DNA from: Bacteroidota bacterium
GTDB lineage: Bacteria > Bacteroidota > Bacteroidia > NS11-12g > UBA955
Length of the DNA: 64,000 nucleotides
Assembly: GCA_023957335.1 (NCBI GenBank)
Contig: JAMLHC010000001.1
Location: forward strand, 1-64,000
Direction: 5' to 3'
Positions 43,802 through 58,167 of the stretch are shown in pieces (positions within the stretch are counted from its first letter, which is position 1; each line of letters begins with the position of its first letter). The notes below the pieces were generated by a model. That model was not told the DNA's origin, made no database searches, and was given only the letters and a program-made list of their open reading frames with translations. The translations under genes were made by a program, and so were the position numbers.

Positions 43802-44875
43802 GTGAAAATCCTCATTCTCTATACCGAAATTGCACAGTACGTTACAGCATCATTACGCTTTTTTCTTCAACAGCAAAAGCAAGCAGAGATTCATCTGATT
43901 AAATATCCTGTGAATGTAGAAGCCCCTTTTGAGTTTGAAAATGAGCAACAACTGCATTTTTACAACAGAAAGGATTTTAATAAAACCACTTTGGCATCGT
44001 TTGTCCAAGAACTTTCGCCCGATGCAATCCTATGTTCCGGATGGATAGACAAAGACTACCTTGCAGTTTGCCGTCTATTTTACAAAAAAATCCCGGTTGT
44101 GTTGGTGATGGACAATCATTGGAAAGGAATTTTCAAACAACGTATTTTGAGTCTTGTCGCACCCTTAACTATCCACCGAACATTTAACAAAACATGGGTA
44201 CCGGGTTTACCCCAAAAAGACTATGCCTTGCAAATCGGCTTCAAAGAGAATCAAATCAAGACCGGTTATTATTGTGGCGATACAGTACTTTTTGGCAAAT
44301 TTAATCAGGAATCTAAGGAGGCTAAGTCGCTTGGTTTTCCCAAAAGATTTATTTGTGTGGCACGTTATATTCCTGCAAAAGGTTTAGAAAACTTATGGGC
44401 AGCATTTGCACAACTGAAAGAAGCAGGCGAATTAAAAGAATGGGAATTATGGTGCTTGGGCACAGGCGAAGGTTTTGATAACAGAATAAAACATCCAAGC
44501 ATTCAACACATCGGTTTTGTACAACCAGCAGACATGGGAAAATATCTGAAAGATTGTAGCTTTTTTATTTTGCCGAGCTTATTTGAGCCTTGGGCTGTGG
44601 TGGCACATGAATTTGCAGCCGCAGGATTCCCATTATTGCTAAGTTCAGCCGTTGGCGCAGCCTCTGCATTTTTGGAAGAAGGGAAAAACGGATACACATT
44701 TCTACCCGGAAACATTGATATGCTAAAAGAAAAGTTGTTACAAATGGCTGCCATGAGCCAAGAACAATACAATACTATGTCAGCACACAGTGTTTATTTG
44801 TCACAAAAAATCAATCCCGAGGGCTGGAGTCAAACCTTATTACAACTCATAACACAAGCGCCATGTGCGGAATAA
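43802..44875 (+). CDS. Glycosyltransferase family 4-like protein
   Basis: A 357-residue GT-B protein. The N-domain starts KILILYTEIAQYV; the C-domain has CVARYIPAKGLENLWAAF near residue 183, LWCLGTGEGFDNRI and FILPSLFEPWAVVAHEFAAA near 260 (E-x7-E donor motif), then FLEEGKNGYTF. The sugar is unknown. The start is a GTG. It overlaps the asnB gene by 13 bases, so the two amidotransferase genes downstream probably act on the same glycan or are at least co-expressed. Confidence 0.9.
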   Translation: MKILILYTEIAQYVTASLRFFLQQQKQAEIHLIKYPVNVEAPFEFENEQQLHFYNRKDFNKTTLASFVQELSPDAILCSGWIDKDYLAVCRLFYKKIPVVLVMDNHWKGIFKQRILSLVAPLTIHRTFNKTWVPGLPQKDYALQIGFKENQIKTGYYCGDTVLFGKFNQESKEAKSLGFPKRFICVARYIPAKGLENLWAAFAQLKEAGELKEWELWCLGTGEGFDNRIKHPSIQHIGFVQPADMGKYLKDCSFFILPSLFEPWAVVAHEFAAAGFPLLLSSAVGAASAFLEEGKNGYTFLPGNIDMLKEKLLQMAAMSQEQYNTMSAHSVYLSQKINPEGWSQTLLQLITQAPCAE

Positions 44876-46698
44876 ACGGAATATATTACTTCACTTCAGG
44901 TACTGTCGAAGAGCAGGTCATAAAAGAAATGAACAATGCGATTGTTCACAGAGGACCGGACAATAGTGGCGTATTTGTAAAAGACCAAGTTGGATTTGGA
45001 CATGTCCGGCTTTCCATCATCGATTTGAGCGAATCCGGCAATCAACCTATGTTCAGCGCTGACAATAGGTTTGTTTTAATATTTAATGGTGAAATCTACA
45101 ATTACCAAAAAATCAAATCTCTTCTTGCGGACTACCCTTTCAAAACATCGACCGACTCTGAAGTATTGTTAGCAGCATACGCCAAATGGGGAAAACAAAT
45201 GTTGGAACACCTTGAAGGAATGTTTGCATTTGCCATTTTTGACAAAGCCGACAACAGTCTCTTCATTGCTCGCGATAGACTGGGAATCAAACCTATATAC
45301 TACTACCGAACCAATAACTACATCATTTTCTCATCTGAAATCAGAGGCTTGATTGCGAGCAAGCTTTTTACACCACAGTTAGACAAAAATATGTTGAGTA
45401 CCTTTTTCCGTTCAGGCACCATTGCCGGAGACGATACTTTACTCAAAGAAGTAAAGATGCTCAGCCCCGCCTCTTTCGCTCAAATTTCCGGTAATGCAAT
45501 GACCATCCAAAACTATTGGGCTCCAGCATTGGAAACCAATACTGAAATCAGCTATGCACACGCCAAGAAAGAAGTGCGCGAACTTTTTTTGCAAGCAGTA
45601 GAGAAACGCTTGGTGGCAGATGTTCCCTTCGGGGCATTCCTTTCGGGTGGCATTGACTCAACAGCTGTTACTGCAGCTATGAGCACTTGTTTGTCGGGAG
45701 CATCTAACACATTCAATATCTGTTTTGCAGAAGCCGCTTTTTCCGAATCCTATTACGCCAAACAAGTAGCCAAAAGATTTGGCACACATCACACTGAAAT
45801 CAAATTAAGTCCAAATCTGTTTCTGGAAGAAATTGATCATATTCTGCAATCATACGACCATCCGAGTGTTGACGGTGCTAACACCTATATAGTCTCGCAA
45901 GCAACACGCAAAGCGGGAATTACCATGGCACTTTCAGGTTTAGGAGGAGATGAGTTATTTGGAGGATATCCGGTTTTCAAACAATTACAACCCACATTGC
46001 AAAAACTGCATAAGCTCCCTACCCCATTGCGCAAAGTCGGAAGTCTGCTGCTCAAAGCCAATCCTAAAGTAAGAAATAAAAAAATGGGAGACTTGCTCGC
46101 TCTTAACAACCCTGACGAAGCGCAAGTCTATGAGACATTTAGAAGTATAATGAGCAAACGCGATTGTATGCGACTTACCGGAAATATTCAGGCAATTGTC
46201 AACCCTAAATTTTTTACTCAAAAATGTGGCACTATTGACAAGATTACACTTGCTGAATATTACCATTATTTACAACCGGTTTTGTTGCGCGACACCGACC
46301 AAATGAGTATGAAACATGCGCTGGAAGTAAGAGTACCTTTCCTTGACCATAAATTAGTGGAATTTGTGCTTACATTACCGGATGCTTATAAGACAAAAAC
46401 GGCTGTCCAAAAATCTTTGCTGGTAGAATCTCTGCATGACCTACTGCCCTCTGAAATCATCCACAGAAAGAAAATGGGCTTTGTACTCCCTTGGGAACAA
46501 TGGCTCAAGAATGAACTTGCAACGTATGTCCAAGATGCGATTCAAACGCTGCAATCAACCCATTTGCTGAATGCAAAGGAATGGCAATCAGCCTTTGATG
46601 ATTTTAAAAGAGGAAGACAAAGCTATAATTGGAATATTTTCTGGGGGCTGATAGTGCTTACAAAGTGGCTGAAAAACAACAAAATAAGCTCGAATTAA
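44863..46698 (+). CDS. asnB: Asparagine synthase-type glutamine amidotransferase
   Basis: A 611-residue enzyme. The N-terminal class II glutaminase is intact: Cys2 nucleophile in MCGINGIYYF, VHRGPDNSG near residue 29, FNGEIYNY near 74 and STDSEVLLAAY. The synthetase half has the ATP pyrophosphatase motif FLSGGIDST near 258 and SGLGGDELFGGYP near 360. The segment PSVDGANTYIVSQATRKAG replaces the usual AsnB sequence and resembles asparagine-synthase relatives in polysaccharide clusters, so the acceptor may be a glycan carboxylate, not aspartate. It overlaps the glycosyltransferase upstream; a paralog follows 57 bases after. Confidence 0.88.
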   Translation: MCGINGIYYFTSGTVEEQVIKEMNNAIVHRGPDNSGVFVKDQVGFGHVRLSIIDLSESGNQPMFSADNRFVLIFNGEIYNYQKIKSLLADYPFKTSTDSEVLLAAYAKWGKQMLEHLEGMFAFAIFDKADNSLFIARDRLGIKPIYYYRTNNYIIFSSEIRGLIASKLFTPQLDKNMLSTFFRSGTIAGDDTLLKEVKMLSPASFAQISGNAMTIQNYWAPALETNTEISYAHAKKEVRELFLQAVEKRLVADVPFGAFLSGGIDSTAVTAAMSTCLSGASNTFNICFAEAAFSESYYAKQVAKRFGTHHTEIKLSPNLFLEEIDHILQSYDHPSVDGANTYIVSQATRKAGITMALSGLGGDELFGGYPVFKQLQPTLQKLHKLPTPLRKVGSLLLKANPKVRNKKMGDLLALNNPDEAQVYETFRSIMSKRDCMRLTGNIQAIVNPKFFTQKCGTIDKITLAEYYHYLQPVLLRDTDQMSMKHALEVRVPFLDHKLVEFVLTLPDAYKTKTAVQKSLLVESLHDLLPSEIIHRKKMGFVLPWEQWLKNELATYVQDAIQTLQSTHLLNAKEWQSAFDDFKRGRQSYNWNIFWGLIVLTKWLKNNKISSN

Positions 46699-46755
46699 CA
46701 CCCTAGATCCATTTCTGTTTGTGAATATTTGCGTAGTTTTAAAACAAAATCAATT

Positions 46756-48561
46756 GTGAGCGGAATTAACGGTATATACAAATTTGGACTTGAAAGTATC
46801 TCCGAAGATATACTCTTCAAAATGAATCAAGCCATTGGAAACGGTGAAAGAGACAAGTACAATTCATGGATTTTTCAGAATATGGGTATTTCGCAAATTG
46901 GCAAGCACCCAATGGAATCGGCAATCGCAGACGGTAGATATACTGTGGTGACTGATGGTCATCTTTTGAATGGTAAGTCACTTAGAAAACAACTCACGGA
47001 TTATGAATTTCAATCGGATTCTGACGCTGAAACCTTAATTGCAGCATACAACCATTGGGGTGCAAGCATGACAGAGCACCTTGAGGGTAAGGTTGCTTTT
47101 GCAATTGCTGACAAAAAGGAGTACGAACTTTTTATTGCTCGTGACAGGTTTGGCATGGCTCCATTATATTACTTTCTGAATGAAAACATTTTTGCTTTTT
47201 CTTCCACAATCAAAGGATTATTAGCATCCGGACTTTTTCAACCGGTATTTGCCAAAGATAGACTTCCTGAATATTTCAGGTTTGGAACCATAATGGATGA
47301 AAACACGTTTGTACGCAATGTCAAAAACTTTCCTCCTGCAAATAGTGCATTATTCTCCAATTTTATTTTTGATTTCACCCCTTACTGGCAGCCCCTTTCC
47401 ACTCAGACAACAGAGGACAACTATGAAACAAGCAAAATCAAAATCAAAAATCTGTTTATTGATTCGGTTAGCAAAAATTTTGAAACTGACGCAAAGACCG
47501 GAATCTTCTTATCGGGCGGCATTGACTCCACCGCCATTACCGCTGCAGCAAGAGAGTGCACACAAGGGCAAATCAGAACTGTGAATATCGGGTTTGATGA
47601 AAGTAATTTTTCAGAAGCGCATTACGCAAAAATTGTTGCGCAAAAATTCAATACAAAACACGAAGAAATCAGACTAAAACCTGACATTTTTTTGGAAGAA
47701 ATTGACAACATACTGAATGCTTATGCTTTTCCAAGTATGGACGGTGCAAACACCTACATGGTTGCACAAGCAGCCAAGAGAGCCGGCATTGATATCGGAT
47801 TATCGGGTTTGGGAGGTGATGAACTTTTCTGCGGATATCCCATTTTTAGCAAAATCAAACCAACACAGAGATATCTCTACTGCATGCCCACTTTTATCAA
47901 AAAAATGCTCATGAGTCAATTGGGACATAATTCCACTATGCGAAAGAAGAAAACAATAGAGTTACTTTCATTGTCCAAACCTGATTTAGCAAGTATTTAT
48001 GGTGTATTTAGAAGTTTAATGAGTAAGGATGATTGCAAAAACATGGCAAATGGTTATCGTACTGTCATCAATGCACAAAAGTTTTTCAAAAACAAACAAA
48101 ATATACTCAGTGATATATCGCTGGCAGAGTTCAATTACTACATGACTCCAATTCTATTGCGGGATACCGCGCAGATGAGTGTCGCGCACTCATTGGACAC
48201 GCGTGCTCCGTTTCTGGATACCCAACTTGCCGAATATATCCTTAGCCTCCCTGAGTCATACAAAACAAAGACAAAACAACCTAAGTCACTATTAGTAGCA
48301 TCTCTGTCCGATTTATTACCAATGGAAATTGTAAATAGAAAAAAGATGGGATTTGTTTTACCTTGGAATCATTGGCTTCGAAACGAGCTTAGTCCTTACG
48401 TGCAAGACGCTATTTACATGCTCAAAGAAACGGATATTTTGGATGCTAAAAAGTGGCAAACAGCTTTTGATGAATTTAAATCAGGAAAAACAAACTACAA
48501 TTGGAATATCTTCTGGGGTGTAGTTGTACTAACCCATTGGCTAAAAAGACACGGACTATGA
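46756..48561 (+). CDS. Asparagine-synthase paralog with degenerate glutaminase
   Basis: A 601-residue protein started at GTG 46756, which lines up exactly with Met1 of the upstream gene: M-S-G-I-N-G-I-Y, so the nucleophile Cys2 is Ser. The other glutaminase motifs are also lost: HRGPD is replaced by GERDKY and NGEIYN by DGHLLN. The synthetase half is well preserved, with FLSGGIDST near residue 250 and SGLGGDELFCGYP near 350. It therefore should bind ATP and an acceptor but not hydrolyse glutamine; it might use free ammonia, pair with the intact paralog, or be regulatory. An upstream TTG at 46729 is an alternative start. Confidence 0.87.
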   Translation: MSGINGIYKFGLESISEDILFKMNQAIGNGERDKYNSWIFQNMGISQIGKHPMESAIADGRYTVVTDGHLLNGKSLRKQLTDYEFQSDSDAETLIAAYNHWGASMTEHLEGKVAFAIADKKEYELFIARDRFGMAPLYYFLNENIFAFSSTIKGLLASGLFQPVFAKDRLPEYFRFGTIMDENTFVRNVKNFPPANSALFSNFIFDFTPYWQPLSTQTTEDNYETSKIKIKNLFIDSVSKNFETDAKTGIFLSGGIDSTAITAAARECTQGQIRTVNIGFDESNFSEAHYAKIVAQKFNTKHEEIRLKPDIFLEEIDNILNAYAFPSMDGANTYMVAQAAKRAGIDIGLSGLGGDELFCGYPIFSKIKPTQRYLYCMPTFIKKMLMSQLGHNSTMRKKKTIELLSLSKPDLASIYGVFRSLMSKDDCKNMANGYRTVINAQKFFKNKQNILSDISLAEFNYYMTPILLRDTAQMSVAHSLDTRAPFLDTQLAEYILSLPESYKTKTKQPKSLLVASLSDLLPMEIVNRKKMGFVLPWNHWLRNELSPYVQDAIYMLKETDILDAKKWQTAFDEFKSGKTNYNWNIFWGVVVLTHWLKRHGL

Positions 48562-48584
48562 ACATAAGTACGTGTAAAAACACA

Positions 48585-48612
48585 AAAGGCTGTCAAAACT
48601 GACAGCCCTTTA
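48585..48612 (+). terminator. Terminator after the amidotransferase paralog
   Basis: Stem aaaggctgtca with tgacagccctt around an aaac-type loop, 23 bases after the stop. It sits between convergent genes and may serve both. Confidence 0.75.
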
Positions 48613-48631: not shown

Positions 48632-51600
48632 TTATTCCTTCACAATTTTGACAACTTGTCCGTCTATCTTCAAGAAATAGATTCCATTGGAGAAAGAAGT
48701 TATATCAATATTTGTCTTTGCATTTTGCGTAACGCCATTTAATAAAATTCTTCCTTGAATATCTGTAATCGTGTATTGGCTTTCGGCTTGGGTTTCTATT
48801 GTAAATAATCCACTTACCGGATTAGGATAGACATTAAAAATTTGACCGGGTATTTGTTTAAAATTCACAAAACGAATTGGACTACGTGTAGTATTTCCAT
48901 CCAAATCCACTTGAACAAGTCGGTAGTAGTTTATCACATTTGGAGTATTATCTATAAATGAATAGTCGGTTTGAGAATAGCTGTTACCATGACCTTGTAC
49001 CACTCCAATTTGTTCCCAAAATACTCCATCTTCACTTCTCATTACTCTAAACTCTTGGTTGTTTTCTTCTTGAGCAGTTTGCCACATAAGATTTACTTTG
49101 TTATGTTGATAGTCCGGAACAGCATCAAAGGAAATGAGTTCAATAGGCAAAGGAATTGCATTTTCACCGATTGCAAAAGGTGAAAACGAGCCCGTATATC
49201 CGGTGTGCGTAAGTGTTTTTCCCGAAGGCGAACCGGAGCCTGAAGTTGCAATCTCCCATTGCATGGTAACTGAGTTAAAATGGTTCAAAGTAGGAGTAGT
49301 AATTGCTACAGACTCCTCACCTACATTCCAATACAATTTAAAATCTACCCCACTTCCTCCATTCGCACTCGCTTTTCCTATATTCCATGTACGTTTTACG
49401 TGTGGCTCGGTCACAATCGTATTACCAGCACCATCATAATAAACCTCATCAATAATGTTAGCAGTAAAATCATCTCCTGAACCTGTATTATTGGTAATTT
49501 CAAGGGGATTATAAGCAGACTTGCCGATAGGGAAAAAGGCAGTTGCTGTATTTGCAACCGTCATTTTAACTATACCTGTACCGCTTGTCTTTACATAATT
49601 GTTTGCATCCGACCCTACAAAAGAACCTGCTGTCAGGTCATGATTGCCCAACACAATTAACTTGTCAGCTCCGTTGAAGTCCACCTTACCCACAGTTTTG
49701 TTATTGTCTAAGACTACGTTGGAGTGTGCTGTATCGCTGAATTTAACATCTTCTCCTGTGCCGGGAACTGTTTTAAAAATCCAATTTGAGGCTGTCGCCC
49801 AGTCAGAATTGGTAACCCCCACCCATTCATTAACACAAGCGGGGTCTGCACCGCCATCAGTGATAGACCAAGACTTACCTGTTACCAAAGCGGTGTGCGC
49901 GGCAGTTCCATACACAGTAGAATAGGTAATACTTGTAGCCTCCAATGTTATATTGCTTGGGGCAGTCCCCCCCGCTACCCAACCCCTCAAGGTAAGGGTA
50001 TAATTGACACAACCCATACCGGAAAAATTAAAATAGGGTGCATAAGGAGTGCCGGGTGCAATTCCGCTTAAATCCCAGTTTCCTAAATTTTGGTCAAAAC
50101 CACTAGCACCAGTAAACATATTCTGAAAGTTAGTCACTTTAGAAACATCCCATGCACCTATGTTTTGGTTAAAAGCAGTGGCAGAATTAAACATTGCATA
50201 CATATCAGTCACATTAGACACATCCCATGCACCTATGTTTTGGTTAAAAGCAGCGGCAGAATTAAACATGCTATACATATTAGTCACTTTAGAAACATCC
50301 CATGCACTTATGTTTTGGTTAAAGAAATTGGCATAACTAAACATTGCAGCCATATCTGTCACATTAGATACATCCCATGAACCAATATTTTGGTTAAAGT
50401 TAGGTGCACTTTCAAACATTGCAAACATATTAGTCACATTCGTAGTATGCCATGCCCAATTCGCTCCTACACCAAATAGTGAAGTACATCCACTAAACAT
50501 AAATTCAACATTAGAAACATTTTTCAATAATGGTGTATCTGTTGCCGTAACATCTAAATTTGAACAACCACGGAAAGCACCATCAAAACTCTTCCAATCT
50601 ATTTTACCCCATTGGGCAACTTTGGTAATTTTGTCTTTATCTCCCGTGCTATTAAAATAGATACTAGGAAAATCACCCATGATATATACTTTATACGTAT
50701 CTCCGTTCTGCAAACCTGTCATGGTGTAGCTACCTGTCTGATTAAGAGCCATTCCATCGCCTACACCGGCATTGGTCATATTCATCCAATAAACATCATA
50801 ATTATAACCGGCTCCCGTAGTGGGTATGGTCAAATTACCGGAAGCCGGGGCTGTCCATTCTGTAATGAAATCACCGATAGAACAAGCCGAACTCGCGCCT
50901 CCATCAGTGATTGACCATGATTTTGTGCCAGATAAATAATCCCTGTAAGTCTGAGCAGCCGGGTGATATTTAACAGAAGCCGCGCCTAATGAAATGGTAC
51001 TTGGGGCATATCCACCGTTTGCCCAACCGTAAAGAGTCTGTGCATAATTATTACAATCTAATCCTGAAGATGACAACATACTTGTCATGTTTGCAACAGA
51101 CGAAATATTCCAAGAACCCAAATTTTGATTGAAAGCACCGGCAAATGCAAACATGGATTGCATGGTCGTTACCTTAGATACATCCCATGAAGCAAGATTC
51201 TGATTAAATGAAGTTGCAGAGTTAAACATGTTTGACATATTAGTAACCTTTGACACATTCCATGAACCTATATTTTGATTAAAAGTACTAGCTACCCGAA
51301 ACATATCTCCCATATTAGCAACATTTGATACATTCCATGAACCTAAATTTTGGTTAAAGGAGGTGGCATTGTAGAACATAGCTGCCATTGAAGTTGCCTT
51401 TGACACAACCCAAGAACCAATATTTTGATTGAAGGAACTTGCACCGGCAAACATCCACATAAAATTTACAACATTTGACACATCCCAAGAACCAATATTT
51501 TGATTGAAGGAACTTGCACTGTTAAACATAAACATCATAGAGGTAATCGTTTTGGTATGCCATGCCCAGTTAGCGCCTATACCTTTGAGTGTTGTACAAC

Positions 51601-53476
51601 CACTAAACATATAAGAAGTATTAATAACATTTTTCAATAATGGCGTATCTATAGCTGTAACATCCATCTTTGAACAACCATAGAATGACTTTTCAAAACT
51701 CTTCCAATCTATTTTACCCCATTGGGTTACTTTCGTAATTTTAGATGTATCTCCGGTATTATTAAAATAAATTCTTGGGAACAAACCCGTGATTTCTATT
51801 CTATAAGTATGTCCAGACACTAAATTACTTATTTGAAAATTTCCGGTTTGATGCATGGTAAAATTCTGACTAATCTCCATATCGCTCATGTCCGAAATCA
51901 CATAATGATAATCGTACCCGGAGCCGTTGGTCGGTATTGTAATTTTACCATCAGCGGTTGCTTTCCACTCAGTAATAAACGGATCTGGCAATGCGTGAGG
52001 TTCATACTTGGCAAGGAAAATATCCATCGGTTTATTAGAGTTAACAAGCACATTAATTCCACGTTTGTCAATATCCGCATTCATATCAATCTTACCTGAG
52101 AATCCACCGGTGATAAATACATTGCCGTCTGCATCGGATGTTATCCCATTAGCGTGATTATATTTTTCATCCCCAAAATCGTATGCCCATTTTATATATC
52201 CTTTCGAATCATATTTAGCCATAAATATATTGTCACTACCCCTGCCTTTCAATGTTCTCTTGTTGGTGCCATCCGGATCAAAGTCAACATAACCCATAAA
52301 AAATCCGGCAACCAAAATATTGTCTTTAGGGTCAAATTTAACGGAACGACCTTCATCGTACTTGGCATCTCCAAAGCCAAACACCCAATATAACTTAGCT
52401 AATTCATCATATTTAGCAAGGAAAATATCCTGCTCACCATTACTGCTAATATAGCCACCGGAACCATAAGGGTCAAAGTTTACCTTTTCTCTAAAAAAAC
52501 CGGTTAATGCAATATTGTTTTTTGAATCAATAGCAACAGACGTCCCTGCTTCAGGTCCTTTATCCCCAAAACCAAAAGACCAGACATGTTTACTATTATC
52601 TTCATACTTAGCCATGAATATATCTTTGTCATCCACTGCTTTTAACCAGTTTCCTGAACCCAAGGGATCAAAATCTGCTTTGTCCATAAAGTAGCCGGTG
52701 ATTATAATATTATCTTTTGAATCAATAGCTACTCCGTGTCCTTCATCATCATATGTTGAACCTATATTAAATGCCCAAATATATGTACCTGCATCATCAT
52801 ATTTGGCTATAAAAATATCTCTTTCTCCATTGGATGCAAGATAGTTGCCATTGGAAGGATCAAAATCAGGTTTCTCCTTAAAATATCCGGTTACAATGAT
52901 TGAATTTTTAGAATCAATTGCCACAGAATGACCCTCATCATCTTCTATATCACCAATTCCTTTTGCCCAAATAAAAGAACCGTCCGGTTTATACTTTGCA
53001 ATAAAAATATCTCTTTTTCCATTAGATGTAAGATTACTTCCATTGGAAGGGTCAAAATCCACAGTTGCCATAAAATATCCCGTGATAATTACATTCTGAT
53101 CTCCATCCAGTGCCACAGACAAGCCTTCATCTGTTTTCGTATCTCCAAAACTACGTGCCCAAATGAGATTGCCAAGCTTATCATACTTTGCAAGAAATAT
53201 ATCTTTATCCCCATTCGAAGAAAGTGTAAGTAGTGAAGGCGGGTTATTAGGGTCTATCCCGAAATCAACTTTGCTTTCGAAACTGCCGGTGATATAGACA
53301 TTGCCATCTTTGTCTGTTGCAACGGCATTACCTCTGTCCTCATAATCACCTGAAGCGTCACCCATTCCTAATGAGAATTTATGTTCGGCAACTTGGGTTT
53401 GTGCATTAACATTAGGAAATGTCAACAGTGTGCAAAATCCGAAGACAAATACGATTTGTAAAAATGATTTTTTCAT
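48632..53476 (-). CDS. 1614-residue T9SS protein, SBBP propeller and BspA-type repeats
   Basis: Signal peptide ending PNVNAQ near residue 26. Residues about 30-510 are seven SBBP-type beta-propeller units, each about 65 residues with a marker such as IFIAKYDDAG. Next come two similar blocks: each starts FITEWxAxxxGxxxIPTxGxGYxY and then has 25-residue DUF285/BspA-type leucine-rich units with FNQNIGSWDVSNVTNM, six in block 1 and five in block 2. A later section is typical of Bacteroidota surface proteins (GNHDLTAGSF, NPLEITNNTGSGDDF), a fibronectin-like region follows, and a T9SS type A tail starts at YPNPVSG. The protein is predicted to be outside the cell; adhesion is the best guess. Confidence 0.9.
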   Translation of the reverse strand: MKKSFLQIVFVFGFCTLLTFPNVNAQTQVAEHKFSLGMGDASGDYEDRGNAVATDKDGNVYITGSFESKVDFGIDPNNPPSLLTLSSNGDKDIFLAKYDKLGNLIWARSFGDTKTDEGLSVALDGDQNVIITGYFMATVDFDPSNGSNLTSNGKRDIFIAKYKPDGSFIWAKGIGDIEDDEGHSVAIDSKNSIIVTGYFKEKPDFDPSNGNYLASNGERDIFIAKYDDAGTYIWAFNIGSTYDDEGHGVAIDSKDNIIITGYFMDKADFDPLGSGNWLKAVDDKDIFMAKYEDNSKHVWSFGFGDKGPEAGTSVAIDSKNNIALTGFFREKVNFDPYGSGGYISSNGEQDIFLAKYDELAKLYWVFGFGDAKYDEGRSVKFDPKDNILVAGFFMGYVDFDPDGTNKRTLKGRGSDNIFMAKYDSKGYIKWAYDFGDEKYNHANGITSDADGNVFITGGFSGKIDMNADIDKRGINVLVNSNKPMDIFLAKYEPHALPDPFITEWKATADGKITIPTNGSGYDYHYVISDMSDMEISQNFTMHQTGNFQISNLVSGHTYRIEITGLFPRIYFNNTGDTSKITKVTQWGKIDWKSFEKSFYGCSKMDVTAIDTPLLKNVINTSYMFSGCTTLKGIGANWAWHTKTITSMMFMFNSASSFNQNIGSWDVSNVVNFMWMFAGASSFNQNIGSWVVSKATSMAAMFYNATSFNQNLGSWNVSNVANMGDMFRVASTFNQNIGSWNVSKVTNMSNMFNSATSFNQNLASWDVSKVTTMQSMFAFAGAFNQNLGSWNISSVANMTSMLSSSGLDCNNYAQTLYGWANGGYAPSTISLGAASVKYHPAAQTYRDYLSGTKSWSITDGGASSACSIGDFITEWTAPASGNLTIPTTGAGYNYDVYWMNMTNAGVGDGMALNQTGSYTMTGLQNGDTYKVYIMGDFPSIYFNSTGDKDKITKVAQWGKIDWKSFDGAFRGCSNLDVTATDTPLLKNVSNVEFMFSGCTSLFGVGANWAWHTTNVTNMFAMFESAPNFNQNIGSWDVSNVTDMAAMFSYANFFNQNISAWDVSKVTNMYSMFNSAAAFNQNIGAWDVSNVTDMYAMFNSATAFNQNIGAWDVSKVTNFQNMFTGASGFDQNLGNWDLSGIAPGTPYAPYFNFSGMGCVNYTLTLRGWVAGGTAPSNITLEATSITYSTVYGTAAHTALVTGKSWSITDGGADPACVNEWVGVTNSDWATASNWIFKTVPGTGEDVKFSDTAHSNVVLDNNKTVGKVDFNGADKLIVLGNHDLTAGSFVGSDANNYVKTSGTGIVKMTVANTATAFFPIGKSAYNPLEITNNTGSGDDFTANIIDEVYYDGAGNTIVTEPHVKRTWNIGKASANGGSGVDFKLYWNVGEESVAITTPTLNHFNSVTMQWEIATSGSGSPSGKTLTHTGYTGSFSPFAIGENAIPLPIELISFDAVPDYQHNKVNLMWQTAQEENNQEFRVMRSEDGVFWEQIGVVQGHGNSYSQTDYSFIDNTPNVINYYRLVQVDLDGNTTRSPIRFVNFKQIPGQIFNVYPNPVSGLFTIETQAESQYTITDIQGRILLNGVTQNAKTNIDITSFSNGIYFLKIDGQVVKIVKE
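50090..50420 (-). repeat. 75-base unit array encoding BspA-type repeats, block 2
   Basis: Five tandem units of about 75 bases, recognisable by plus-strand catcccatgcacctatgtt and attttggttaaa at regular spacing. The first three are nearly identical, a sign of recent unit duplication. Confidence 0.8.
51080..51540 (-). repeat. 75-base unit array encoding BspA-type repeats, block 1
   Basis: Six tandem units of about 75 bases with the core ccaatattttgattgaa on the plus strand. They are more diverged from each other than those of the 50.1-50.4 kb array. Confidence 0.8.
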
Positions 53477-53788: not shown

Positions 53789-54808
53789 TTATTTTACCAC
53801 CCTTTCAACTTCAAACTTAGGATATCCGGTTTGCTTGTTTTCGTTATAAAAATCGAGGAAGCGCAGTTTGTAATAATCCCCTTTAGTATTTTTAACAATA
53901 TAGACTGTGTTTGGATTCATGGTATAATCAAAAGAGACAGTATAATCAAAGGTCTTCCAAGCATATCCAATAATATCTTGTCGAGTTGTGTAATCTTTGT
54001 GTTGACAAACAGCTAAGTTAATTTTGTCATAACCAATGACAGTATCTATAGAAACTGAAACATTGTGAGGGTTAAGCAAACAACCGGTAACAAGATAAGG
54101 GAATGGTTCTGTGGGGTTGGGGTCTATATAAAAAATAAAGCGATAGCGTGTAAACACAAAGTCCCATTCATTGTTATCCGGTTCATAATCGGTAGCAATC
54201 TGTCCGTTCCGTATATTGAGATAAGTAAAATTTCGGTCTTTGTTTCTCGCAAAATCAATGGTTTGAGCAGAATCAGGACTTGACAATTTTCCTAATTCAA
54301 CTTTGTAATGAGTTTCATCGGCTTCAAGTACTTTGATAAAATAATAACGTTGTGCCGCACTGAGATTGCGCCCCATATCAAGGATATGATAAGGCATATT
54401 ATTTCCGTACAATTTAGTCCAATCGCCAAAGGCATTGCTATCAATGCTTCCATTAGGAAAATCATATAACCACTGTTTGAGCGGAATCTGAGCCGGCTTG
54501 ATTGTATTCAGTTCATTTCGGTTATGAATATTGGTGCGTGCTACAAAAATATTACGACCATAGTTGGAAACAACCTTAAACTGATTGGTAATATTATCAA
54601 AAGCTAAATCCCAGTCATTAAGGTCTTTTTTGGAATAGGTTAAATCTTCTAATTTGAAAAACAATTGATTTTGATATGCATCACCCATATAAACCGACAT
54701 TACCTCTGACTCAGTTTGTGGCAGGGTAAGGGGTTTATCTTCTTTGAAACAAGAGCTAAGCAGCAATAACAAAGGGCTTAATATCAGTATGCGGCAATGA
54801 ATTTTCAT
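53789..54808 (-). CDS. HmuY family lipoprotein
   Basis: A 339-residue lipoprotein: signal ending LLLSSC|FKED near residue 20. Two HmuY-type beta domains are visible through repeats of the kind NDWDLAFDN near residue 65 and NEWDFVFTRYRF near 218, and GYAWKTFDY near 283. HmuY proteins of Bacteroidota bind heme at the surface and hand it to a TonB receptor. The coordinating histidines cannot be identified with confidence. The gene ends an operon with a TonB receptor immediately upstream and a T9SS HmuY-like gene before that. Confidence 0.83.
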   Translation of the reverse strand: MKIHCRILILSPLLLLLSSCFKEDKPLTLPQTESEVMSVYMGDAYQNQLFFKLEDLTYSKKDLNDWDLAFDNITNQFKVVSNYGRNIFVARTNIHNRNELNTIKPAQIPLKQWLYDFPNGSIDSNAFGDWTKLYGNNMPYHILDMGRNLSAAQRYYFIKVLEADETHYKVELGKLSSPDSAQTIDFARNKDRNFTYLNIRNGQIATDYEPDNNEWDFVFTRYRFIFYIDPNPTEPFPYLVTGCLLNPHNVSVSIDTVIGYDKINLAVCQHKDYTTRQDIIGYAWKTFDYTVSFDYTMNPNTVYIVKNTKGDYYKLRFLDFYNENKQTGYPKFEVERVVK

Positions 54809-56836
54809 TTAAAGTGTGTAAGAAATTTTGATAAAAAACGAACGTCCCGGAGAAAGCATCATACTGCTACCATTGCCGTGAAAACTATTAAAAGGATTGA
54901 TATTGGTAATATTGCGTACATTGAATATATTTTTAACACCGCTCACAACTTGTAGCTTATCTTTAAAAAATCCTTTAGAAAGTGTGAAGTCCATAAAAGT
55001 CATTGCACCTGAAAAATATTCGCTCACAGCACCTTGTTCATTCATAATATAGTTTACAAACTTGCCATTATGCTTGAGAAACAATGCGGCTTTGACACCG
55101 GTTTTCTTAATATCATAGCTTGCAGACACGGTGATATCAGGTGTAAGATAATAATCTTTTCCGGTTTGACTACTGAATTGGTTTCGCACAATCATTCCTC
55201 CTGCAGCCATTTCTAAATAAAGTTTTTTGTAAAATAATTTATGTTCAAACATCATCCCGCCACCTTGGAAGCGCCCGTAATTTTCATAAGAGTAAAGGTT
55301 TTGGGCTTTGTCAATCAATACCAAACCTATCATATCACGTACATCATTGTAGTAAGAACTTGCTCCGAAAGAGTAGGCAACTTTATTATGTGAGTTTTTA
55401 AAACTTGCGCCTAATTGAATGTTGTGAGAAAACTCCGGTGTCAAATTAGGATTCCCTTTGATATTATGGTTGATATCCACAAAGAGAAGCTTCTGTTCTT
55501 TGAGAGAGGGCGCTCTAAATCCGTTGCCATAAGAGCCTCGCACCTGCCATTTTTTATTTGGCTCCCACATTATATTGAGAGACGGTGTTAAAGGGGATGT
55601 AAAAATCGTATTATAGGCAACGCGCAATCCCGGCCGTACTCTAAGATATCTATTAAAATTATAATCCACCATAGCAAAAACCGCAAAATCACCCATGCTG
55701 AGTTTGTCTCCGTCTATTCTGTCTGCAATTGCCAAATCATAGTTAAAATCATAACCTGCAAGATAGTTTACTCTGCCTTTATTCCTATTGCTAAAAACAG
55801 CCCTTGCCATCACATTCACAAAGAGATTATTGGTGTTCTCATCAACATTATCAATGAGGTTTTGTTCCAGACTAACCATGTCTTTTCTGTAAACTCTTTT
55901 TTCCCTTTTGTAATGTGAAACTCCGTTAATCATATCAACCCTGATTTTGGGACTGATATTGAAGATTGTATTTACACTGTGAACCCCTCTGGTGGTAATA
56001 AAATAATCATCAAAAGCATAGGCAGATATGGGAGTAAGCACAAGATTCCCTTTGTTTTGTAAGGTTTCATGCAAGTAATCAGAGCGAAAATTCCACGTTG
56101 CTTTTTTGGATTCTCTAAAATAGCCGATGTTACCAAACCATTGTTCTCGGGGCTTCCACAAATAGGTTCTTTCTCCATTGTCGGTAGGAATTCCTGCAAA
56201 GAAATTTCGGGCAAGCCCGCCCAGAATGACAGCTTTCTCACCCAAAGGTTGTGCAGCCGAGGCACCAATGTTAATATTACCAATACTTTCGTTATAGCTG
56301 TATGCAGTAGCAGAAGTCTTCTTGAGAACCGGCTTTTTTGTAATAACATTAATTACTCCGCCAAGTGCGTCAGTACCATAGATAACAGACATTGGACCTT
56401 CAACAATTTCAATTCTATCTACATCTTCTAAGTTAATCTGGTCGAGATTGATATTGCCGTTCTCGCGTCCGGTGATGGGCATTCCGTTCACCAAAAATTT
56501 GATTTGCTGACCTGACAGATTTTGTAATGATACTGAACTGCCAAGCATATTGTCATTGGAAATCCTGATGTTGGATTGTCTGCCAAGCAAATCTCCCAAA
56601 TTTACAGCAGCCATTTGTTTGAAAGTCTCACCCGTAAGCACTCTGAATTTGACAATACTTTGGTTGGCTCGCACACTATTCCCTTGCCCGGTAATGACAA
56701 TTGGGTTTAGAATGGTATCTTGTGCAGGAGTAAGCGAGTCTTTGTCCACAACTGATTTAGCAGTGGCTGTATGGTTGAAAAATATAAATAAAGCAACAAA
56801 GCCGCACAATTTCTGTACGGCTCGCATTGCATTCAT
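54809..56836 (-). CDS. TonB-dependent receptor, HmuR-like
   Basis: A 675-residue receptor as started at the ATG at 56836 (a further ATG at 56827 is possible, and a TTG at 56866 would overlap the previous stop). A signal peptide ends HTATAKS near residue 28. The plug is standard: VRANQSIVKFRVLTGE near 60, INLDQINLEDVDRIEIVEGP, YGTDALGGVINVITKK near 150. The barrel ends SFFIKISYTL. There is no CarboxypepD domain. The gene sits between two HmuY-type genes, so heme or another HmuY ligand is the expected substrate; the next gene starts one base after its stop. Confidence 0.87.
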   Translation of the reverse strand: MNAMRAVQKLCGFVALFIFFNHTATAKSVVDKDSLTPAQDTILNPIVITGQGNSVRANQSIVKFRVLTGETFKQMAAVNLGDLLGRQSNIRISNDNMLGSSVSLQNLSGQQIKFLVNGMPITGRENGNINLDQINLEDVDRIEIVEGPMSVIYGTDALGGVINVITKKPVLKKTSATAYSYNESIGNINIGASAAQPLGEKAVILGGLARNFFAGIPTDNGERTYLWKPREQWFGNIGYFRESKKATWNFRSDYLHETLQNKGNLVLTPISAYAFDDYFITTRGVHSVNTIFNISPKIRVDMINGVSHYKREKRVYRKDMVSLEQNLIDNVDENTNNLFVNVMARAVFSNRNKGRVNYLAGYDFNYDLAIADRIDGDKLSMGDFAVFAMVDYNFNRYLRVRPGLRVAYNTIFTSPLTPSLNIMWEPNKKWQVRGSYGNGFRAPSLKEQKLLFVDINHNIKGNPNLTPEFSHNIQLGASFKNSHNKVAYSFGASSYYNDVRDMIGLVLIDKAQNLYSYENYGRFQGGGMMFEHKLFYKKLYLEMAAGGMIVRNQFSSQTGKDYYLTPDITVSASYDIKKTGVKAALFLKHNGKFVNYIMNEQGAVSEYFSGAMTFMDFTLSKGFFKDKLQVVSGVKNIFNVRNITNINPFNSFHGNGSSMMLSPGRSFFIKISYTL

Positions 56837-56862
56837 CTTATTAATTATTAACCAATCAGTTG

Positions 56863-58167
56863 TCAATTCGTTTTTATAATTTTTGAAGTAAATACTTCAT
56901 TTTGTTGGATGACTCTGAGTATGTACAAACCATTGTTCAGAGCAGACATATCAATTTTGTTGTTAGCCGGGCTAATAACTGAGTTTAAAAGCACTCTGCC
57001 GTTCATGTCTAACACCTCAACCTGAGCATTTTGTTCAGTTTGTACAAACAATGTTGAAGTTACAGGATTTGGATAAGTTCTAACATTTGACAATGAGATA
57101 CTTGCCACTCCATCAACAGGACCTGACGGTTTTGCTTGTTTTTGGAATTGAAAATTCATTCTCACATTAGCAGAACCACCGTATTTGTTGAAATGCAATA
57201 AATAAAGCGTATCACCACCGTTGTCAATCACAAAAGACAGTGAGTCTTCATAAACATAAGTGTTTTTAAATAATTTCCAGTCATATCCGATATTATCAAT
57301 ATTCTCGGAAAAATTTCTTACGGCAGACCAAGCAGAGTCAGGGTGTACATCAGTTATTCTTGCTACTTTTACTCCCTTCTTTTGAAGTGAACCAGAAACT
57401 GACATATACTGCCATTGCATTTGGTTTAATATAGGATTGTAACCCGCTGCATAAGTATAGTAGTTAGTAAAGACAACATCCCAATCTGCCTTAGAAGGCT
57501 CCAAATTCTTCACACTGTTACTTGCTAAATCATAGTACACAAAGTATCTGTCGGGATAATCGCTCTTTTTAATGGAGTCAGAATGTTGATTATTGTTGTC
57601 CAAATCAGCATAAGTAAAGTGATATACATTATCACCTTCTAAATCTCCAAAATATAGTTTTCTATAAACATTGCCTCTCACAATAAGATAAACTTTGCCT
57701 ACTGACTTAATAGCATGGGTACCCTCTTCGTAATTACCCCATCCGTAATATGGACCTCCCATACTAGGGGGTACTGTTAAATCTAAACCTGTATTAAAAG
57801 CACCCATATCCCATGATGTGTCTGAGTCAAGCAGTTCAGTCCATGATGTTTTGAAATTGGTTGTATCCAAGGTTGCAAACCCTGAAACATCAACTGAATC
57901 GGGAGCTACATATACCTTAACAGTTTTTCCGTTGTTAACACGGATTGTGGTTGCTTGCACGGTAGAATTAGGAATTACAATGTTTTGAACAGAGAATGCT
58001 AAATCCCAATTAACAGCATCTGAAATATGCTGATTTTGTGTCTTGAATGAATAATAAATTTGCTTGGCGGATTTGTTTTCCAATGTAACAGAATCTTCAA
58101 TCCAGCCCTGTGCATTAGCCGAGAAGCTAAATGCAACAGTCATTACTATTAATAAATTTCTTCTCAT
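56863..58167 (-). CDS. HmuY-like protein with T9SS sorting tail
   Basis: A 434-residue secreted protein: signal peptide ending FSANAQ near residue 20, then two HmuY-like beta domains with NWDLAFSVQN near 54 and DWDVVFTNYYTYA near 230, and a T9SS type A tail from YPNPVTS near residue 365. HmuY proteins are normally lipoproteins; here a C-terminal sorting signal replaces the lipid anchor, so it would be released or attached at the surface by another route. It leads the operon, with an exact -7 box upstream at 58190. Confidence 0.83.
   Translation of the reverse strand: MRRNLLIVMTVAFSFSANAQGWIEDSVTLENKSAKQIYYSFKTQNQHISDAVNWDLAFSVQNIVIPNSTVQATTIRVNNGKTVKVYVAPDSVDVSGFATLDTTNFKTSWTELLDSDTSWDMGAFNTGLDLTVPPSMGGPYYGWGNYEEGTHAIKSVGKVYLIVRGNVYRKLYFGDLEGDNVYHFTYADLDNNNQHSDSIKKSDYPDRYFVYYDLASNSVKNLEPSKADWDVVFTNYYTYAAGYNPILNQMQWQYMSVSGSLQKKGVKVARITDVHPDSAWSAVRNFSENIDNIGYDWKLFKNTYVYEDSLSFVIDNGGDTLYLLHFNKYGGSANVRMNFQFQKQAKPSGPVDGVASISLSNVRTYPNPVTSTLFVQTEQNAQVEVLDMNGRVLLNSVISPANNKIDMSALNNGLYILRVIQQNEVFTSKIIKTN

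Follow-up and report, generated by a model that had tools for sequence, protein, structure and literature searches.

AsnB enzymes are dimers, and a number of their relatives (beta-lactam synthetase, CarA and the lasso cyclases) have dispensed with the glutaminase while adenylation remains; these relatives use an amine internal to the substrate, closing rings. To our knowledge, the superfamily has repeatedly left glutamine-fed amidation for other chemistry, with the known cases being old and isolated. In L. casei AsnH, the equivalents of Cys2, Arg49, Asn75, Glu77 and Asp98 are essential for the glutaminase, with C2S alone abolishing glutamate release, and seven residues are required in the synthetase, namely the Ser, Asp and Ser of the PP-loop, the Gly and Asp of SGxGGDE and two Lys (PMC3885529). 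Free ammonia is also believed to enter AS enzymes straight at the synthetase site (PMC11615228). In the mammalian CPS1, the glutaminase Cys has become Ser and the ancestral tunnel is blocked, with the domain being kept and ammonia used (PMC4655335). The nearest known model in Bacteroidota is WbpS (PGN_1234) of P. gingivalis, an AsnB-like amidotransferase that forms a uronamide on a glycan acid and makes the glucuronamide linking sugar for T9SS cargo (PMC7468200).

Gene organization

The window, a 64,000-nucleotide stretch of a Bacteroidota bacterium contig (JAMLHC010000001.1), had been said in an earlier sequence-only reading to carry two adjacent asparagine-synthase-type genes with aligned starts, the second opening with GTG at 46756, and both open reading frames are present at these positions (Table 1). 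Gene A comprises 611 aa with an ATG start and the N-terminus MCGINGIY; gene B, its paralog with 49% identity, comprises 601 aa with a GTG start and the N-terminus MSGINGIY. We refer to the window copies as A0 and B0 and to those of the genus-mate G001 as A1 and B1. An in-frame TTG nine codons 5' of the GTG (46729) is also a possible start for B, but we set the start at 46756 based on the alignment and the ATG-started ortholog. The 3' end of the upstream GT4 gene runs 13 bases into A, and A and B are separated by 57 bases in which no terminator was called. The 9-mer AATATTTGC recurs in the A-B gaps of both species (window 46699-46755; L036 5952-6000), some 25 bases ahead of B; as it resembles a Bacteroidota -7 element with one mismatch, B may have a weak promoter of its own.

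Table 1. Positions in the window of the GT4-A-B unit and of the segments of B discussed in the text.
Feature	Coordinates	Strand	Evidence
GT4-type glycosyltransferase, first gene of unit	43802..44875	+	Pfam Glycos_transf_1 6e-19
Gene A, intact AsnB-type glutamine-dependent amidotransferase (GATase + Asn_synthase)	44863..46698	+	Pfam PF13522/PF13537/PF00733; NCBIfam TIGR01536
Gene B, tandem paralog of A, pseudo-glutaminase domain + kept synthetase domain	46756..48561	+	
Codon 2 of B, AGC (Ser) replacing the Cys nucleophile	46759..46761	+	sequence; Ser also in G001 ortholog
Deletion site in B, R49-L-S-I-I-D-L loop gone, flanking Gln-Ile-Gly-Lys now joined	46894..46905	+	A0/A1/B0/B1/G003 alignment
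DGHLLN of B replacing NGEIYN (oxyanion Asn + Glu lost)	46954..46971	+	
GATase-domain end + linker of B (about A residues 151-210)	47203..47382	+	
PP-loop SGGIDST of B, kept	47512..47532	+	
Acceptor-side segment of B around AYAFPSMDGANTY; A equivalent SYDHPS	47719..47760	+	
Hairpin/terminator 3' of B, bidirectional, 8-13 pairs, end of the GT4-A-B unit	48583..48612	.	

With respect to domains, A matches GATase_6/7 and Asn_synthase at full strength (PF00733 6e-83; TIGR01536 461 bits). B harbors the same domains, but its GATase match begins only at residue 43-47, reflecting degradation of the first part of the domain. Both Bs nevertheless pass the TIGR01536 cut-off (311 and 306 bits vs. 267), thus constituting an annotation trap in that this model still names B 'glutamine-hydrolyzing'. 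The source genome encodes four AsnB-like genes as well as GatB; AsnA was not found there.

Distribution and origin

A search for the pair in other genomes, as the sequence-only reading had advised, recovered it in G001 (JAGFIU010000015.1, locus L036) in the same PAP2 - GT4 - A - B order, with 66% identity for A and 62% for B between the two species; G001 being the only other species of the genus examined, B is known from two sequences. In G001, B starts with ATG and displays Ser2 as well as the identical loop deletion, and no homolog of B with Cys2 was found; this ATG-Ser ortholog in another genome rules out a sequencing error at codon 2 of B, the possibility that had been raised against the earlier reading.

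Homologs of A were searched for in 70 family genomes (35 matched) and those of B in 396 class genomes (99 matched), and among the close homologs in these genomes no tandem copy was found outside the genus. Elsewhere, A is single-copy and has Cys2 in 34 of the 35 relatives sampled. The lone exception is a single-copy A homolog (L029 of G031) with Ser2 encoded by TCT (TGT in the relatives) and the rest of the glutamine pocket intact, which reflects a fault in the assembly or else an independent loss at a very early stage. A GT4 homolog adjoins the A homolog in G001, in many other relatives and in the nearest other genus (G003), where the GT4-A unit is present and B is absent. In trees, A0, A1, B0 and B1 group together with G003 next (94-100 support for the five), leaving B as sister to either both A or A1 alone. 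Given this grouping, the restriction of the pair to the genus and the lack of B in G003, the duplication of A is placed at about the base of the genus. As for conversion of one gene by the other, we rejected it on the basis of only 3 quartet sites for A0B0|A1B1 vs. 61 for AA|BB; A0-B0 sites are slightly over-represented at 551-600.

When 247 genomes of the phylum were scanned with PF00733, the matches listed included one close tandem pair, in G295 (L070, 1731-5427), comprising AsnB-like genes with overlapping ends, each with Cys and intact glutaminase motifs. Two additional AsnB-like pairs among the matches listed, about 5 kb apart in G562 and G515, are also intact. A widespread pairing with a pseudo-glutaminase was therefore dismissed, since the other pairs of the phylum among the matches listed are all intact. 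In the asparagine-synthetase literature, we found no tandem pair of this kind.

Residues lost and retained in B

The changes in B0 that had been read from the sequence are all present, including Cys2 to Ser, the loss of RGPD (HRGPD is now NGERD) and NGEIYN to DGHLLN. The largest lesion, however, had been missed: a deletion of 8-10 residues in both species which removes the invariant RLSIIDL loop with Arg49, with R49, L50 and I52 being invariant in 35/35 relatives. Of the five glutaminase residues, all present in A0 and A1, B has lost Cys2, Arg49, Asn75 and Glu77 in both species, with Asn75 replaced by Asp and Glu77 by His or Tyr depending on the species; Asp98 is kept in B0 and lost in B1. Met120 and Lys143 at the tunnel mouth, near-invariant in the family, are also lost in both Bs; their equivalents in human ASNS are V119 and the gate residue R142 (PMC11615228). 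B consequently has neither the Cys nucleophile nor the glutamine pocket required of a glutamine-hydrolysing asparagine synthase. In principle, Ser2 might act as a new N-terminal nucleophile, with the domain now being another amidohydrolase, as N-terminal serine hydrolases exist in the Ntn fold and the Ser is found in both species inside the conserved MSGINGI stretch. We regard this as most improbable, since Arg49, Asn75 and Glu77 are gone with differing replacements (H/Y), Asp98 is also lost in B1 and no part of the domain is less conserved than the pocket segment (residues 31-90).

The synthetase half presents a different picture. The motifs SGGIDST and SGLGGDELF, said earlier to have survived in B, are still there, and both Bs keep the PP-loop SGGIDS, the Gly and Asp of SGLGGDE and two catalytic-type Lys (in KSLL and RKKMGF), so that all seven synthetase residues required in AsnH (PMC3885529) are present in both Bs. 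The residues kept in B are S253, G254, G255, D257, S258, G351, D355, K510 and K530, while A has S261, D265 and K537. For the residue comparison, we relied on what we take to be the E. coli AsnB sequence, stretches of which agree with the alignment to PDB 1ct9; the R387 row was left out as misaligned, the family having LLRDTD at that place. With near-invariant columns defined on 35 single-copy relatives (44 in the glutaminase domain and 60 in the synthetase domain), A0 and A1 kept 43 and 41 of the 44 N-domain columns and 59 and 58 of the 60 synthetase columns; B0 and B1, by comparison, each kept 22 of 44 but 53 and 52 of 60, respectively. Seventeen of the N-domain losses are common to both Bs, and the bias of losses in B towards one domain is far beyond chance (Fisher p = 2e-5 for B0 and 6e-5 for B1).

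The synthetase side of B is not without changes. The invariant D332, D479 and M483 (the latter to V) are lost in both Bs, together with E488D in B0 and R490H and F493M in B1; the homology of D479 to Asp405, the gate partner in ASNS, is ambiguous owing to an indel, and we draw nothing from it. On the acceptor side, D332-H333 has become A/S-F in both Bs, turning SYDHPS into A-Y-A-F-P-S or S-Y-S-F-P-S. These shared acceptor-side changes, together with M483V, speak somewhat for an acceptor that differs from that of A or for closure of the tunnel, but the drift of some synthetase invariants also leaves room for B being a paralog that binds and does not catalyse.

Rates of evolution in the two halves

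As dS is saturated between the species, we used dN of A as an internal control. In examining the two halves separately, as had been proposed earlier, B was found to evolve fast in the N-domain and like A in the C-domain, as evidenced by: 1) dN values in B vs. A of 0.37 vs. 0.20 for the N-domain and 0.285 vs. 0.249 for the C-domain; 2) branch lengths after the species split on a fixed tree of 0.41/0.41 for B vs. 0.14/0.16 for A in the N-domain and 0.28/0.27 vs. 0.25/0.28 in the C-domain; 3) since the split, a glutaminase domain that is 2.8x faster in B than in A and a synthetase domain with an equal rate. Relaxation over the whole protein, which would have spoken against the earlier reading, is accordingly absent. 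The whole N-terminal half of B is itself under purifying selection (pN 0.29 vs. a saturated pS of 0.80); hence the N-domain of B is relaxed, though not free of constraint.

Relaxation is found in residues 31-120, spanning the glutamine pocket, and identity between the two Bs in residues 31-90 is 35-43% vs. 73-83% between the As. The reverse applies to residues 151-210, which are 80-87% identical between the Bs vs. 53-60% between the As, with the linker (166-230) differing in conservation between B and A (Fisher p 0.007) and from the C-domain by permutation (p 0.0004). As a lead from two sequences per gene, B seems to have gained constraint in this segment. The notion of a decaying glutaminase half next to a selected synthetase half, as put forward in the sequence-only reading, therefore holds for the dismantled pocket and the constrained synthetase but not for the N-half at large, which is not simply decaying since 151-210 is tighter than in A. 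These data also contradict the idea of B as a duplicate in the course of pseudogenization. The many losses and the raised N-domain rate would fit such a fate, but the frames are open at full length in two species at saturated synonymous divergence, pN is well below pS in all parts, the C-domain rate equals that of A and 151-210 evolves slower than in A, making it highly improbable. Judged from the two orthologs, B is a real, conserved pseudo-glutaminase paralog, with the unusual aspects being its tandem setting and recent origin.

Proposed function of B

We surmise, at a rough probability of one half, that B still works as an amide synthetase, ATP-dependent and acyl-adenylating, which carries a pseudo-glutaminase domain, is fed by ammonia and has a modified acceptor site. 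In this scheme, A would have been duplicated in tandem in the stem of the genus, with B then being stripped of its nucleophilic Cys, the pocket for glutamine and the ammonia-tunnel mouth, such that nitrogen could no longer be drawn from glutamine; the N-terminal domain would persist as a structural pseudo-domain. B would adenylate a carboxylate like that of A in an altered acceptor pocket; this would probably be an acid, on a sugar or glycolipid, from the GT4-A pathway, and the amide nitrogen would derive from ammonia that enters directly, either cytoplasmic or released by the neighbouring A. Ammonia from A could help B but is not required by our data. B shares with AsnB and ASNS (TIGR01536; PDB 1ct9, 6gq3) the domain order, PP-loop, SGxGGDE and catalytic Lys, but differs from them in the absence of the glutaminase residues and the tunnel mouth. 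CPS1 is a functional analogue that provides a precedent for a Cys to Ser change with ammonia use (PMC4655335); in contrast to B, however, its class I glutaminase and its synthetase are unrelated, and no tandem glutamine-using copy lies beside it.

Ammonia use by itself does not explain the conserved 151-210 segment of B. One possible reading, to which we give about half the weight of the one above, is that B is a non-catalytic or weakly catalytic partner which scaffolds or regulates A within an A-B heterodimer, with 151-210 as a new contact surface. A and B are adjacent in one operon and similar in size, the N-domain fold and 151-210 remain under selection despite the dead glutaminase, and some synthetase-side invariants of B are gone. 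A pure scaffold, on the other hand, would need neither the ATP and catalytic residues, which B keeps in full, nor a synthetase that evolves no faster than that of A. AlphaFold models of A and B with four-sequence input reached pLDDT values of 38 and 37, respectively, too low to be of use.

The lost tunnel mouth and altered acceptor side might also signify that B is an amide ligase in which an organic amine (an amino acid, aminosugar or lipid amine) takes the place of ammonia, for which AsnB relatives without a working glutaminase are a precedent and to which weak similarity in sequence to structures of CarA and beta-lactam synthetase would lend some credence. Nevertheless, we deem this unlikely because A, at 49% identity, resembles B far more than any such enzyme does, B being a recent duplicate of an amidotransferase, the lasso and macrolactam cyclase models of NCBIfam fall far short of their cut-offs (187 bits vs. 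525; 61 vs. 300), and the ORFs and Pfam matches around the pair disclosed no precursor peptide or lactam pathway. Quite unlikely, too, is a bolder version in which B would represent a novel sort of glycan-acid amide ligase, joining an amine other than ammonia and using the newly constrained 151-210 segment as the amine or partner site, and would act in tandem with A in one genus-specific step of envelope-glycan synthesis.

As for the acceptor, the position of Glu348 in AsnB, part of its SGEGxDE motif, is occupied by Leu360 in A and Leu352 in B (SGLGGDE), with L, I, V or M across the family, and both A and B carry DGANT in place of the Asp-binding region; neither thus looks like a canonical asparagine maker. 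The lack of Glu348 and of the aspartate-binding segment, along with the GT4 gene that accompanies many A homologs, points to a sugar or glycolipid acid as the probable acceptor. By analogy, WbpS is a plausible model for A, even though the surroundings of A are a GT4 unit rather than a wbp cluster; the part of PMC7468200 drawn on here describes no dead-glutaminase partner for WbpS. T9SS sorting domains are also encoded in the window.

With the ancestor-like and altered copies side by side, the A-B pair represents a natural case of losing a nitrogen-supply module, and since the loss is recent and confined to one genus, the order and consequences of glutaminase and tunnel loss should be directly testable.

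Neighbouring genes

Downstream of B, the minus strand (48632-53476) encodes a secreted protein of 1614 aa that combines four DUF285 (BspA-like) stretches with beta-propeller repeats and bears a T9SS sorting tail; its gene stands between B and an HmuY-like gene and is missing there in the genus-mate (L036). Adjoining this T9SS-tailed protein, also on the minus strand, are a TonB-dependent receptor (54809-56866) and the HmuY-like lipoprotein (53789-54808), a probable haem-uptake unit.
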